DNA of 35,238 nt from an uncultured Clostridium sp. (lineage in GTDB: Bacteria; Bacillota; Clostridia; Clostridiales; Clostridiaceae), in the NCBI GenBank assembly GCA_902785295.1, contig CACZYK010000015.1, positions 1 through 35,238 on the forward strand, in the 5' to 3' direction. The stretch's first letter is position 1. Each line of letters begins with the position of its first letter. Below, in pieces: positions 1,150 through 8,725 of the stretch. The position numbers and the translations under genes were made by a program. Under the pieces are notes generated by a model. That model saw nothing but the letters and a program-made list of their open reading frames with translations, was not told where the DNA came from and did not search any database.

Positions 1150-1419
1150 CTAGTGTGTACTTAAAATATTATTAATATCTTCTAGGTCTACAAGGAGTAC
1201 ATCAATGCCTATTTTAGAAATATTGTTCCATAATATTTCTATATCATCTCCTTTTGAAAACCATCCTTTTTCTTGTCCTTGAAGAATTATAGAAATTATT
1301 TTATTTTCACTACAATCTATTTTTATATCTTTTATAAAGCCAAGCTTTCTACCAGTATTAATATCAATTATTTCCATACTTCTCATAGCATTAATTGAAT
1401 GAAGCATCTCTTCTTCCAT
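1150..1419 (-). CDS. ylmC: YlmC/YmxH family PRC-barrel sporulation-associated protein
   Basis: This 89-residue protein is a single PRC-barrel-like domain (MEIIDINTGRKLGFIKDIKIDCSE region) of the YlmC/YmxH family. The family is conserved beside sigG in spore-formers, and its molecular role is not established. There is no signal peptide or membrane segment. It lies 49 nt downstream of sigG on the same strand with no obvious terminator between, so co-transcription is likely. This fits forespore-associated expression, which is an inference from position. A second PRC-barrel protein at 22830-23306 is unrelated in context. Confidence 0.85.
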   Translation of the reverse strand: MEEEMLHSINAMRSMEIIDINTGRKLGFIKDIKIDCSENKIISIILQGQEKGWFSKGDDIEILWNNISKIGIDVLLVDLEDINNILSTH

Positions 1420-1468
1420 ACTTATCCCACCTTTCTGTAAGAATAATATGAAGATTTAATGCTTTTTA

Positions 1469-2242
1469 TTACACATGGTTTTTCATATGTTTTAAAGCTA
1501 TTTTTTCAAGCCTTGATACTTGAGCCTGGGATATACCTATTTCATCTGCCACTTCCATTTGTGTTTTTCCATTAAAAAATCTTAAGTTTAATATTAGCTT
1601 TTCTCTACTGCTTAACTTTTTCATAGCTTCTTTTATTGATATATTTTCAAGCCAGCTTTCATCTGTATTTTTATTATCTTTTACTTGGTCCATAACATAA
1701 ATGGCATCTCCTCCATCATGGTAAATAGGCTCATACAATGATACTGGGTCTTGTATTGCATCTAATGCAAACACTACATCTTCTCTTGGAAGATTTAATT
1801 CTTTTGATATTTGAGATATTGTTGGTTCTTTATTATTATCTTTTATTAATTTATCTCTTACTAAAAGTGCTTTATAAGCTATGTCTCTTAATGATCTGCT
1901 TACTCTTATTGAATTATTATCTCTAAGATATCTTCTTATTTCTCCTATTATCATAGGTACTGCGTATGTAGAAAATTTTACATTTTGATTTAGGTCAAAG
2001 TTATCTATTGCTTTCATTAACCCTATGCATCCAACTTGAAATAAATCATCTACATTTTCTCCCCTATTATTAAATCTTTGTATTACACTTAAAACTAATC
2101 TTAGATTTCCTTTTATAAAAGAATCTCTTGCAACATTATTGCCTTGTTTAATTTGTAAAAGTAATTCTCTTTTTTCGCTTTCTTTCAAAACAGGAAGTTT
2201 TGAAGTATTTACTCCACAAATTTCAACCTTATTAATGATCAA
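1469..2242 (-). CDS. sigG: RNA polymerase sporulation sigma factor SigG
   Basis: Late forespore sigma factor. The N-terminal block NKVEICGVNTSKLPVL, region 2 (NLRLVLSVIQRFNNRGENVDDLFQVG; FSTYAVPMIIGEIRRYLRDN) and region 4.2 (GKTQMEVADEIGISQAQVSRLEK) are nearly identical to B. subtilis SigG. I place the start at the TTG at 2242, giving 257 residues. This start is 9 nt from the AAGGGG ribosome site (2252-2257) and gives exactly the B. subtilis N-terminal length before NKVEICG. The upstream ATG (2248) and TTG (2251) are only 3 and 0 nt from that site. The gene follows sigE in the same direction by about 80 nt. The leader holds a hairpin covering the ribosome site and a sigma-F-like promoter (see findings). 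Confidence 0.97.
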   Translation of the reverse strand: MIINKVEICGVNTSKLPVLKESEKRELLLQIKQGNNVARDSFIKGNLRLVLSVIQRFNNRGENVDDLFQVGCIGLMKAIDNFDLNQNVKFSTYAVPMIIGEIRRYLRDNNSIRVSRSLRDIAYKALLVRDKLIKDNNKEPTISQISKELNLPREDVVFALDAIQDPVSLYEPIYHDGGDAIYVMDQVKDNKNTDESWLENISIKEAMKKLSSREKLILNLRFFNGKTQMEVADEIGISQAQVSRLEKIALKHMKNHV

Positions 2243-2251
2243 AATCATCAA

Positions 2252-2299
2252 CCCCTTCGGAAGTAATTACAAAATTCATTTAATATTATTTCCGAAGAG
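2252..2299 (-). promoter_or_regulatory. Leader hairpin sequestering the sigG ribosome-binding site
   Basis: On the minus strand CTCTTCGGAA (2290-2299) pairs with TTCCGAAGGG (2253-2262), a 10-bp stem with one G-U pair and a loop of 27 nt. The 3' arm contains the only good ribosome site for sigG (AAGGGG, 2252-2257). The stem would occlude translation initiation in any mRNA carrying both arms. Confidence 0.65.
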
Positions 2300-2313
2300 T
2301 TATACTTTTATAC
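2285..2313 (-). promoter_or_regulatory. Candidate sigma-F promoter for sigG
   Basis: GTATA (2309-2313) and GGAAATAAT (2285-2293) are 15 bp apart on the minus strand. They match the B. subtilis sigma-F pattern GYATA and GGnnAnAnT at all defined positions. The predicted start near 2278 lies between the two hairpin arms, so this transcript would lack the 5' arm. Confidence 0.5.
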
Positions 2314-2323
2314 TAGAGACAAG

Positions 2324-3031
2324 TTATGTCATTTTAGTAATTTCTTTTTTTAATCTATTAATTATTTTCTTTTCTAATCTAGAAATGTAAGATTGTGATA
2401 TTCCTAAAATGTCTGCAACTTCCTTTTGAGTTTTTTCTCTATTTCCATCAAGTCCAAATCTAAGCTGTATAATTTCCTTTTCTCTATCATTTAAACTTTT
2501 TAATGCTGTAAATAATAACTGCTTATCCACTTCATCTTCTATAAGATTATATACTGTATCATTTTCAGTTCCTAATATATCAGATAATAAAAGTTCATTT
2601 CCATCCCAATCTATATTTAAAGGCTCATAAAAAGAAATTTCTGCTTTAATTTTGCTATTTCTTCTTAAATACATTAAGATTTCATTTTCAATACAACGAG
2701 AAGCATAGGTTGCTAATTTTATTTTTTTTTCAGGTTTAAAAGTATTTACTGCTTTTATAAGTCCTATTGTTCCAACAGAAACTAAATCTTCAATATATAC
2801 TCCTGTATTTTCAAATTTTCTTGCTATATAAACTACTAACCTCAAATTTCTTTCTATTAAAACACTTCTTATATCTTCATTTCCATTGAGCAATTCTAAA
2901 AGAAGCTTTTCCTCCTCTTCCTTAGATAAAGGGGGAGGTAAAACATCATTGCCACCTACATAATGAAGACTATTTCCTTGTATCTTTAACCTTTCCATTA
3001 ATTTATTTAAAATAAGTCCTAAGTTTAACAT
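2324..3031 (-). CDS. sigE: Pro-sigma-E, mother-cell sporulation sigma factor
   Basis: Early mother-cell sigma factor made as an inactive precursor. The first ~23 residues ([20 protein letters not shown]) form the hydrophobic/amphipathic pro-sequence, removed by SpoIIGA. The mature protein begins around [19 protein letters not shown], which aligns with YYIGGSEALPPPLSK of B. subtilis. Region 2 ([53 protein letters not shown]) and region 4 ([23 protein letters not shown]) are intact. It is 235 residues long, with ribosome site AGGAGGG 8 nt before ATG. It lies 15 nt behind spoIIGA, so protease and substrate are co-expressed. Confidence 0.97.
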
Positions 3032-3046
3032 AATTTTACCCTCCTT

Positions 3047-3850
3047 TTAAATAACACCTCTTGAAAGTAATGCATTAAAATCTCTCTCTTTACTAAGTAA
3101 TTCTTTACATGGACATATAATGGCATTGATTTCTCTCCATATTCCTCCTTCTTCTCTTATCCTTACTTGTTTTCCTAAAAAACCTTTAAGTTTTCCTGCA
3201 TAACCTATTGCTTTATATGGAATGTAATAAGCTTCCTTTTCATTTAAATTAGCTATAAAATTTTCTTCTACAATAATACATGGAAAGTTTGTTATAGGCT
3301 CTCTAAGTTCATTTCCTGTGTCTAGAAAACCTTTAATCATATACTTTGAATCACCAATAAAAAATTCTATATCATAAGTAAAATTTTTTATTAAAGTTCT
3401 TTCCTTTATATATTCAATAATTCTACTAAAAGATATATATATTATCATTAAAGAAATAAGTAAACCTTTAATTGAATAATCGTTTATTTCATACCCCCTA
3501 GAAATTCCTTTGAAACTTCTACTAACAGAAAACATTATACATAAACCACTCAAAGAAAAAGCTCCTAACAAATATATTAAAGCTGCTTTTAACTTAAAAA
3601 GAAAATTAGTGTTCTTAAATGAAATATTTATAATTTCATAAACAACAACTATCTGACAAGGTATTACTGCAAAGATTCTTAAATTTTTAAAAACCATGAC
3701 TAATGTATATAATGCCCCTAATATCCCTCCTAAAAATTCTCTTTTTAATGTGATTTTTTTTCTTAAAATCTTGGAAGTAACCTTAAGTAAAAAGATATCT
3801 ACAATGAAATTTTCTAAAAGAATTACATCTAAATAAATTTCCATTTGCAT
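3047..3850 (-). CDS. spoIIGA: Sigma-E processing peptidase SpoIIGA
   Basis: Membrane aspartic protease that cleaves pro-sigma-E after a forespore signal (SpoIIR in known systems). The N-terminal ~145 residues contain five hydrophobic segments. The cytosolic domain follows, with the catalytic GFLDTGNELREP motif (Asp177-Thr178-Gly179). The length of 267 residues is somewhat below the ~309 of B. subtilis, mainly in the C-terminal part. It begins the spoIIGA-sigE(-sigG) transcription unit, behind a candidate promoter with an unusually long spacer. Confidence 0.95.
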   Translation of the reverse strand: MQMEIYLDVILLENFIVDIFLLKVTSKILRKKITLKREFLGGILGALYTLVMVFKNLRIFAVIPCQIVVVYEIINISFKNTNFLFKLKAALIYLLGAFSLSGLCIMFSVSRSFKGISRGYEINDYSIKGLLISLMIIYISFSRIIEYIKERTLIKNFTYDIEFFIGDSKYMIKGFLDTGNELREPITNFPCIIVEENFIANLNEKEAYYIPYKAIGYAGKLKGFLGKQVRIREEGGIWREINAIICPCKELLSKERDFNALLSRGVI

Positions 3851-3867
3851 CTCTCCCTTTAAAGATA

Positions 3868-3900
3868 ATTATACTTGTTTTAATTTCAAAATTTTGTCAT
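3868..3900 (-). promoter_or_regulatory. Candidate Spo0A-activated promoter of spoIIGA-sigE
   Basis: On the minus strand ATGACA (3895-3900) and TATAAT (3868-3873) are separated by 21 bp. B. subtilis spoIIG is known for a sigma-A promoter with a 22-bp spacer activated by Spo0A. The opposite strand reads TTTTGTCA over the -35, which contains the TGTC core of a 0A box. Confidence 0.45.
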
Positions 3901-4071
3901 TTTATTATTTAAAAGATTTATTTTTAAAAGCTCATATTTTACATATTTTTACAGTAGATTGCATTTTTATTTCCTCTTTTCTATTATCAAAGTTATTAAC
4001 AAATATAAGTTTTCATTATTAGTTCCCAAAATATTAGAAATATTCAGAAAAATATCAAATCAATAAAAAAA

Positions 4072-4130
4072 GTGCGAAATTATTATTTTTATAAAACCAA
4101 TTTCTTGATTCTAAAAAAATAACTTCACAC
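4072..4130 (-). repeat. Degenerate copy of the large-hairpin repeat
   Basis: The left arm GTGCGAAATTATTATTTTT (4072-4090) pairs imperfectly with AAAAAAATAACTTCACAC (4113-4130). Flanks AATAAAAA on the left and CTTAAACTA on the right resemble those of the two copies at 34510-34581 and 34608-34673. On the minus strand the hairpin is followed by a T-tract. Confidence 0.55.
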
Positions 4131-7966: not shown

Positions 7967-8665
7967 TTAGCTATTATAAGTGAGTGATTTTTTTAATTTC
8001 TTTAATGCCTTTTTCTCTATTCTTGAAACGTAGGACCTTGATATATTTAAAAGTCCAGCAATTTCTCTTTGAGTTCTATTTCTTCCATCATCTAAGCCAT
8101 ATCTCATTATAATTATATTATATTCTCTTTTTGTTAAAACCTCTTTCATTTTCCTATAGAGAGATTTTATTTCTAATTTACTTTCAACCTTATCTATTAC
8201 AGAATCCCTTTCACTGCTTAGAACATCGATTAAACATATTTCATTACCTTCTTTATCGACACCTATAGGCTCTTGTAAATATACCTCGTTTTTTTGTTTT
8301 TTATTGTTTCTAAACAGCATTAATATTTCATTTTCAATACATCTAGAGGCATATGTGGCAAGCCTTGTACCTTTAGAGCAATTAAAGGAATCTATTGCTT
8401 TTATAAGACCAACTGTCCCTATTGAAATTAATTCATCTACATCCTTATTAGGAAATGAATATTTTTTTACAATATGAGCTACCAAGCGAAGATTTCTTTC
8501 AATAAGTACTTCTTTTGCTTCTTTATCTCCCTCTCTTAATTTTTCTAAGTAAAATTTTTCTTCATCTTCATCTAATGGTAATGGAAAAACATTATTACCA
8601 GAAATATATCCTGATAATAAAACTGTGTTTGATATAATTTCTAAAAAATTTGTTAATAAAAACAC
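7967..8665 (-). CDS. sigK: Pro-sigma-K, late mother-cell sporulation sigma factor (uninterrupted)
   Basis: Late mother-cell sigma factor. I place the start at GTG 8665, 5-6 nt after a strong AGGAGGA site, giving 232 residues. The N-terminus FLLTNFLEIISNTVLLSG is a hydrophobic pro-sequence. The mature protein would begin near YISGNNVFPLPL, aligning with YVKNNAFPQPL of B. subtilis. Region 2 (NLRLVAHIVKKYSFPNKDVDELISIGTVGLIKAIDSF) and region 4 (RTQREIAGLLNISRSYVSRIEKKALKKL) are intact. The gene is continuous, with no skin-type insertion. No SpoIVFB gene is nearby. Confidence 0.95.
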   Translation of the reverse strand: MFLLTNFLEIISNTVLLSGYISGNNVFPLPLDEDEEKFYLEKLREGDKEAKEVLIERNLRLVAHIVKKYSFPNKDVDELISIGTVGLIKAIDSFNCSKGTRLATYASRCIENEILMLFRNNKKQKNEVYLQEPIGVDKEGNEICLIDVLSSERDSVIDKVESKLEIKSLYRKMKEVLTKREYNIIIMRYGLDDGRNRTQREIAGLLNISRSYVSRIEKKALKKLKKSLTYNS

Positions 8666-8725
8666 CTTGCTCCTCCTAGCAGTGCTTAATACTATAATAT
8701 TCAAGAAATAAGGTATTTATTAACA

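Follow-up and report, generated by a model that had tools for sequence, protein, structure and literature searches.

Promoter-spacer complementarity to the sigG ribosome site as a probable silencer of spoIIGA-sigE read-through mRNA in Clostridia and Bacillus relatives

Early sigG RNA in Bacillus subtilis is read-through and is not translated, as stated in excerpts of Jones 2008 (PMC2530871). A very large hairpin (20+ pairs) has been proposed to block translation of this spoIIGA-sigE read-through RNA; it is absent from sigG-promoter RNA, according to excerpts of Mearls 2018 (PMC5942855), which cites Sun 1991 and Masuda 1988. The same excerpts give the B. subtilis sigG leader as 30 nt, with its ribosome site at +19 to +23, and describe within it a 5-bp hairpin that lowers sigG translation 2–4-fold and that, when strengthened, can almost entirely block translation; they also survey sigG leader hairpins, promoter spacing and start codons in 13 Clostridia. 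In phage T4, the long early transcripts of gene e hide the ribosome site, and late-promoter RNA, which starts beside the site and lacks the 5' part of the stem, is translated (PMC3014915, in excerpt). For Clostridia, the excerpts of Jones 2008 (PMC2530871) report spoIIGA-sigE-sigG, spoIIGA-sigE and sigG RNAs in C. acetobutylicum and say that no sigma-F promoter had been predicted there. Excerpts of Saujet 2013 (PMC3789822) count sigG of C. acetobutylicum among the few characterised clostridial sporulation promoters and infer two promoters for C. difficile sigG, for which a mapped start is given in the excerpted PMC7438776. Excerpts of PMC3789829 and PMC3416734 held nothing further on read-through. 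Within a mainly open-licence literature, we came across no paper describing a read-through stem, or coevolution of such a stem, for Clostridia, and no account of how Clostridia avoid early sigma-G after early sigG transcription.

We analysed a 35,238-nucleotide stretch of DNA from an uncultured Clostridium sp. (hereafter the window; a contig of genome G000, from a genus, g1, with 68 genomes). Its sigma-factor similarity and low GC likewise point to a Clostridium. Here spoIIGA and sigE lie directly upstream of sigG, as in the B. subtilis-type silencing arrangement, with SpoIIGA scoring below its NCBIfam cut-off. The features of the locus are as follows.

3850–3047, minus strand: spoIIGA, first gene of the putative read-through operon, preceding sigE; matches NCBIfam TIGR02854 (E 9e-54, 182.8 bits, below the family cut-off of 209.55)
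3031–2324, minus strand: sigE; matches NCBIfam NF006158 and TIGR02835, both above cut-off
2322–2317, minus strand: TTGTCT, just upstream of the -35 element and conserved in the family
2313–2309, minus strand: -35 element GTATA of sigma-F type, read from the sequence and conserved in relatives
2308–2294, minus strand: 15-bp promoter spacer, its last six bases being the anti-ribosome-site part of the 5' arm
2299–2290, minus strand: 5' arm of the stem, CTCTTCGGAA, in read-through RNA only (predicted fold)
2293–2285, minus strand: -10 element GGAAATAAT, its first four bases within the 5' arm
2288–2264, minus strand: upper stem and loop, 2288–2285 pairing with 2267–2264, the loop lying around the likely transcript start
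2277–2279, minus strand: predicted forespore transcript start, separated from the -10 element by 5–7 bases
2262–2253, minus strand: 3' arm of the stem, TTCCGAAGGG, containing most of the ribosome site (predicted fold)
2257–2252, minus strand: ribosome site AAGGGG, 9 nt before TTG 2242
2252–2230, minus strand: a second hairpin, predicted for both transcripts, whose loop holds the start codon TTG
2242–1469, minus strand: sigG; matches NCBIfam TIGR02850 (491 bits, above cut-off), start codon TTG 2242–2240 by alignment
1419–1150, minus strand: YlmC/YmxH-family gene, after sigG
1081–623, minus strand: nrdR, after the YlmC/YmxH-family gene

The sigG start was read as TTG at 2242, and the homologous codon is TTG or GTG in 59/65 genus genomes, the window included. 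Starts across these 65 comprise 40 TTG, 19 GTG, 4 ATG and 2 CTG; ATG is used in 72/82 loci from other genera of the family, and a non-ATG sigG start was given for 1/13 Clostridia in the excerpts of Mearls 2018 (PMC5942855). No intrinsic terminator (GC stem, then T run) was found in window positions 1400–4100, and no Rfam covariance model matched positions 1900–2700 with E ≤ 1. The window also holds a sigma-factor-like frame at 7967–8704 with weak similarity to sigG (34% and 42% identity, in two pieces). Some g24 genomes, G082 and G088 contain 2–3 SigG-like matches per genome (E ≤ 1e-80), suggesting sigG duplicates.

The original prediction described a 10-bp stem, 2253–2262 with 2290–2299, with AAGGGG, the ribosome site of sigG, in its 3' arm, and this was correct to the base. 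Ten pairs (one of them G-U) are followed by an A.C mismatch and four further pairs (2288–2285 with 2267–2264). The RNA from 2250 to 2302 folds at -15.6 kcal/mol, compared with -6.3 ± 2.2 for shuffles (z -4.16, 0/200 as good), and 2225–2313 folds at -22.1 (z -4.08, again with 0/200 shuffles as good); the stem is similarly clean in L010, L011 and L015. The accompanying claim that the 5' arm coincides with the -10 element held for the first four -10 bases (2293–2290) but not for the other six bases of the arm (2299–2294), with which the spacer ends; promoter spacer and -10 thus matter equally as key elements. Pairing with the window leader scored -11.7 for the native site, and none of 29 other GTATA-N15-GGNNANANT sites of the genome (mean -2.3, best -9.7) paired as well. 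These 29 sites serve as promoter-like controls only, because the motif matched about as often as its reversed control in five genomes (30/26, 25/30, 35/43, 18/27 and 18/13) and was rejected as a finder of true sigma-F promoters.

The sigma-F-like promoter named in the original prediction was likewise an exact match (GTATA at 2313–2309, 15 bp, GGAAATAAT at 2293–2285), and a forespore promoter between sigE and sigG is predicted from this consensus match and from its conservation in the genus alignment. Across 148 Clostridiaceae loci (one genome entering twice), the promoter finder returned GTATA in 140 and GAATA in 6, and failed at 2 contig ends. When the 30-nt B. subtilis leader was placed by eye on a relative, L233, seven bases separated the -10 element from +1, and a similar offset would put the forespore start of the window at about 2277–2279. 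The 5' arm ends at 2290 and therefore lies outside RNA begun at this predicted start; in predicted folds, the stem covers the ribosome site of read-through RNA and could not form in RNA from the inferred start. The predicted promoter RNA (2277–2225, 53 nt) folds like its shuffles (z -0.46). A leader hairpin over the ribosome site of about -6 kcal/mol or lower was not found in this 53-nt fold, in which two pairs touch the site. The second hairpin at 2230–2252 has a mean pair probability of only about 0.2 in the genus.

Two further motifs flank the promoter. TTGTC(T/C) precedes the -35 element in 63/65 genus loci, 59/80 other family loci and 1/61 loci elsewhere in the class. AATGC follows soon after the -10 element, near the likely start, in 52/65 genus and 72/80 other family loci and in none elsewhere in the class sample; the window has AATGA (2276–2281). 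A leaderless small frame with an ATG near 2279, overlapping the sigG start, was considered and, on reading the sequences by eye, dropped: its third codon is a stop in L017 and L051, the frame is missing in L027 and L031, and its ATG is perhaps at or before the transcript start.

Taken together with the comparisons described below, the stem very probably silences sigG on spoIIGA-sigE read-through mRNA and leaves forespore mRNA free. The same bases would be double-coded, serving in DNA as spacer and -10 element of the forespore sigG promoter and in RNA as a silencer. Messages from the early spoIIGA-sigE operon would carry the silencer arm, and the stem would cover the sigG ribosome site; forespore polymerase would start inside the stem, downstream of the 5' arm, so that forespore mRNA could not form the stem and would be translated. 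Compensatory change would keep the arms complementary in most lineages with sigG after sigE and no terminator. We infer where transcription starts, that read-through occurs in this species and that folding lowers translation, the last by likeness to the strengthened B. subtilis leader hairpin. The original prediction of silenced read-through and free forespore mRNA thus stands as the best explanation of the anatomy, the predicted folding, the coevolution of the arms and the exclusion by terminators in the Clostridia sample.

We compared the locus in four samples. The genus sample comprised the sigE-sigG junction from 65/68 genomes, leaving out G053, G061 and L074 (without sigG start). For the family, 90 loci were chosen from 184 matching genomes to cover genera and 83 were located (L106, L107, L114, L115, L136, L137 and L146 were not); L084 and L100 (truncated by contig ends) and L103 (already present as a genus genome) were left out and 80 were used, so that genus and family together gave 145 loci, 127 of them distinct. 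The class sample, from outside Clostridiaceae, consisted of 112 loci selected by score and family coverage from 208 + 17 partly overlapping matching genomes; 101 were parsed (all except L200, L228, L381, L396, L397, L400, L403, L407, L411, L417 and L420), and 5 with a promoter score below 9 were left out. The Bacilli sample was the best 80 of at least 574 loci (79 parsed, 62 distinct), and therefore represents Bacillus and its relatives.

Covariation of both arms, proposed as a check of the original prediction, was borne out by swap tests: the arms coevolve in Clostridia and in Bacillus relatives, and in Clostridiaceae, other Clostridia and Bacillus relatives complementarity between the spacer and the ribosome site of its own locus is seen although the sequences differ. 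Counts of covariation in fixed alignment columns were set aside for swap and shuffle tests, since pairing registers differ between clades and column counts therefore understate covariation. Among 99 hand-picked representatives of the three groups (one per genus where genera were known), native arms paired at -9.39 kcal/mol versus -4.09 for crossed arms (z -17.6). The effect was present in 33 class genera, at one locus each, whose sigG follows sigE with no strong terminator between them (z -9.5), in 36 family genera (z -6.3), in Bacilli (z -3.2) and in ten loci of the genus (z -2.1, p 0.018). Over 63 distinct genus sequences, the values were -7.96 native versus -5.99 kcal/mol crossed, with clade-level permutation giving p<5e-5 for 26 and 16 clades and 3.5e-4 for 10 clades. 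Native spacers paired better than the mean of shuffled ones in 66/75 family sequences (40 with p ≤ 0.05), 45/56 class sequences (30) and 61/62 Bacilli sequences (47), and the best complement of the spacer was a 12-nt stretch starting 13–21 nt before the start codon in 59/75 family sequences. Against 29 promoter-like sites, the native 5' arm (spacer plus -10) was the best of 30 in 22/52 genus and 55/75 family sequences and was better than their mean in 46/52 and 70/75, respectively.

Individual loci illustrate how the pairing is kept. Within the genus, a core of GGA(A/G) x UU(C/U)C pairs is found repeatedly, and several registers occur in the pairing of the spacer with the ribosome site and its following bases (for example, AAGTATCATC x GGTTGATACTT in L041, AAGTATTGCC x GGTGAATACTT in L046 and ACTCCTT x AAGGAGT in L060). 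Chosen examples from beyond the genus are wholly changed yet complementary: TCAGCTTCT x AGGGGCTGA in L077 and TCGCCC x GGGGCGA in L139. Further chosen examples are AAACACCTCCGAG x TTCGGAGGTGTTT in L214, CACACCTCGCGCG x GCGAGCGAGGTGTG in L389 and TTTTTCCCACCC x GGGAGGGAAAAA in L233, together with L229 and L413, which have about 20 pairs. The weakest part of the case is the window's own genus, in which the spacer is poor, pairing leans on the -10 element and some relatives keep little. The genus spacer alone scored -2.85 versus -1.51 when shuffled (native better in 29/52, p ≤ 0.05 in 11), and poor pairing of the -10 part was seen by eye in L026, L034–L036, L038, L039 and L048.

Terminators between sigE and sigG provided a natural control. 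We sorted 96 loci of Clostridia outside Clostridiaceae by upstream content, judging sigE by motif and then by phmmer, with cut-offs of -9 for terminators and -4 for spacers that were chosen after the first class batch had been seen. With sigE upstream and no strong terminator, an anti-ribosome-site spacer was present in 39/50 loci, 27/33 genera and 17/21 families; where a strong terminator followed the upstream sigE (families f21, f23 and f31), it was present in 0/17 loci and 0/11 genera (Fisher, p 1.6e-6 at genus level; 17/21 vs 0/3 at family level, p 0.017). A second batch, taken after the pattern had been seen, gave 13/16 vs 0/4 loci (p 0.007), all four from f21, and looser cut-offs counted 1–3 terminator loci as having the stem. 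The strong terminators lie between sigE and sigG, in each case without the stem, in L172–L174, L176–L179, L185, L187, L190, L191, L195, L206, L373, L374, L378 and L379. Eleven of the 50 loci with sigE and no strong terminator did not pass as having the spacer: neither device was seen in L166, L210, L211, L375 and five g132 loci of f21, and L194 and L199 pair, but no better than shuffles; within f21, which includes L375, L380 has the stem and a terminator-like site of only -7.8. The loci with no recognised sigE within 350–400 bases were a mixed group, with the stem in 8/29 loci and 8/26 genera. By-eye inspection of 15 of these 29 found that the f17 loci (n = 4) all lack the stem, three having a divergent gene upstream, and that L399 has the stem and a same-direction gene upstream. 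In Clostridiaceae, all 145 loci tested lacked a terminator-like site between sigE and sigG, even at the loose cut-off. In Bacilli, 8/72 loci had such a site at the loose cut-off (-4.5), all with the stem, and one of the eight (L245) passed the strong cut-off with its stem kept; the exclusion therefore holds for the Clostridia sample only. There, the presence of the stem without a strong terminator and its absence with one suggest that read-through is handled by either a terminator or a hairpin.

The same loci bear on whether the stem, instead of affecting translation, makes the read-through RNA a target for an RNase or stops transcription between sigE and sigG, which we consider unlikely. Such an action would fit the strong-terminator class loci without the stem, which make terminator and stem alternatives, and the separate spoIIGA-sigE and sigG RNAs found beside the long one in C. 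acetobutylicum (PMC2530871, in excerpt). However, no T run follows the stem, and the spacer retains its complement at the ribosome site in most family loci despite sequence change, and a processing site would have no need of this.

Predicted exposure of the ribosome site separated read-through RNA from promoter RNA, being lower in the former in five of six groups. The predicted values were 0.19 vs 0.66 in the family, 0.18 vs 0.51 in the class without terminator, 0.06 vs 0.33 in Bacilli, 0.26 vs 0.51 in the mixed no-sigE group (where exposure thus falls too) and 0.25 vs 0.37 in the genus, and exposure was unchanged in the class with terminator (0.62 vs 0.64). The predicted difference exceeded 0.25 in 12/65 genus loci; by another definition, the genus gave 0.17 vs 0.42, with a difference above 0.3 in 24/63. 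The window itself gave predicted values of 0.11 vs 0.28, or 0.09 vs 0.68 by the other definition, as promoter RNA that includes more of sigG takes up other pairing and its exposure (0.28 or 0.68) depends on the definition. That the stem is a general ribosome-site hairpin, damping sigG whatever the transcript as a 5-bp hairpin does in B. subtilis, is very unlikely. The 2–4-fold effect of that B. subtilis hairpin (PMC5942855, in excerpt) offers a precedent, and the promoter leader alone is predicted to hide the site (exposure <0.2) in 9/63 genus sequences, but the 53-nt promoter RNA of the window has only two predicted ribosome-site pairs, and any start given by the promoter would fall downstream of the 5' arm.

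Inverted repeats near promoters are often operators, and the conserved TTGTCT adjoins the -35 element, so that the repeat could be a DNA site for a forespore regulator. This is most improbable: the repeat sequence varies between clades while complementarity stays, one arm contains the ribosome site and the arms of the window are 27 bases apart. TTGTCTCTAGTATAAAA was rejected as a regulator site recurring through the genome, where it had 51 matches with up to 3 mismatches, versus 49 in the control. It is also scarcely credible that a spacer rich in pyrimidines matches a purine-rich ribosome site merely by chance. Spacers are indeed short, and any of them directed against purines would score; but shuffled spacers, crossed arms and other promoter-like sites gave weaker pairing on average, and in the 17 class loci with a strong terminator the same gene is without the feature.

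With this comparison, silencing of read-through sigG mRNA by a stem, proposed earlier for a single species, would become a widely conserved arrangement, for which the Clostridia sample supplies a natural control: a strong terminator or the stem is present, not both. Clostridia can co-transcribe sigG early with sigE (in C. acetobutylicum, and by inference in C. difficile), and the stem offers an answer to how early sigma-G could be avoided. Promoter spacers, commonly taken as mere spacing, can carry selected RNA sequence. More broadly, the promoter spacers of spore-forming Bacillota may already have served as antisense to the ribosome site downstream of them when Bacilli and Clostridia had not yet split, with both strands renewed by compensatory change and the device exchanged for a terminator in some lineages, and other cell-specific genes after earlier operons may be guarded likewise; we regard this wider view as evenly balanced.

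The closest described system, the B. subtilis sigG read-through hairpin as given in the excerpted account, shares with the window the gene, the place after spoIIGA-sigE and a stem, predicted in the window, that would block translation of read-through RNA and could not form in promoter RNA, and in B. subtilis relatives the predicted 5' arm is likewise promoter spacer plus -10. The two differ in that their sequences are unrelated, that the window has 10+4 pairs as against 20+ and that its sigE stop lies only ten bases before the -35 element. In T4 gene e (also soc, 49 and I-TevI), again as excerpted, the upstream strand of the stem is specified by elements of the promoter, as it is by spacer and -10 at positions 2299–2290 in the window; the T4 device differs in serving phage lysis timing and in using a late phage promoter. 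We know of no homology between it and the sigG stem. The hairpin in the B. subtilis PsigG leader (Mearls 2018, in excerpt) covers the same ribosome site, and its CUCC strand is probably the one that meets the -10 GGAG in L233 read-through RNA; unlike the stem described here, it forms in promoter-started RNA, and it is not predicted in the short leader of the window. The kind of device is thus already known, having been proposed for B. subtilis sigG and sharing its logic with T4 gene e; new here are its breadth, the coevolution of its arms and the terminator as its alternative.
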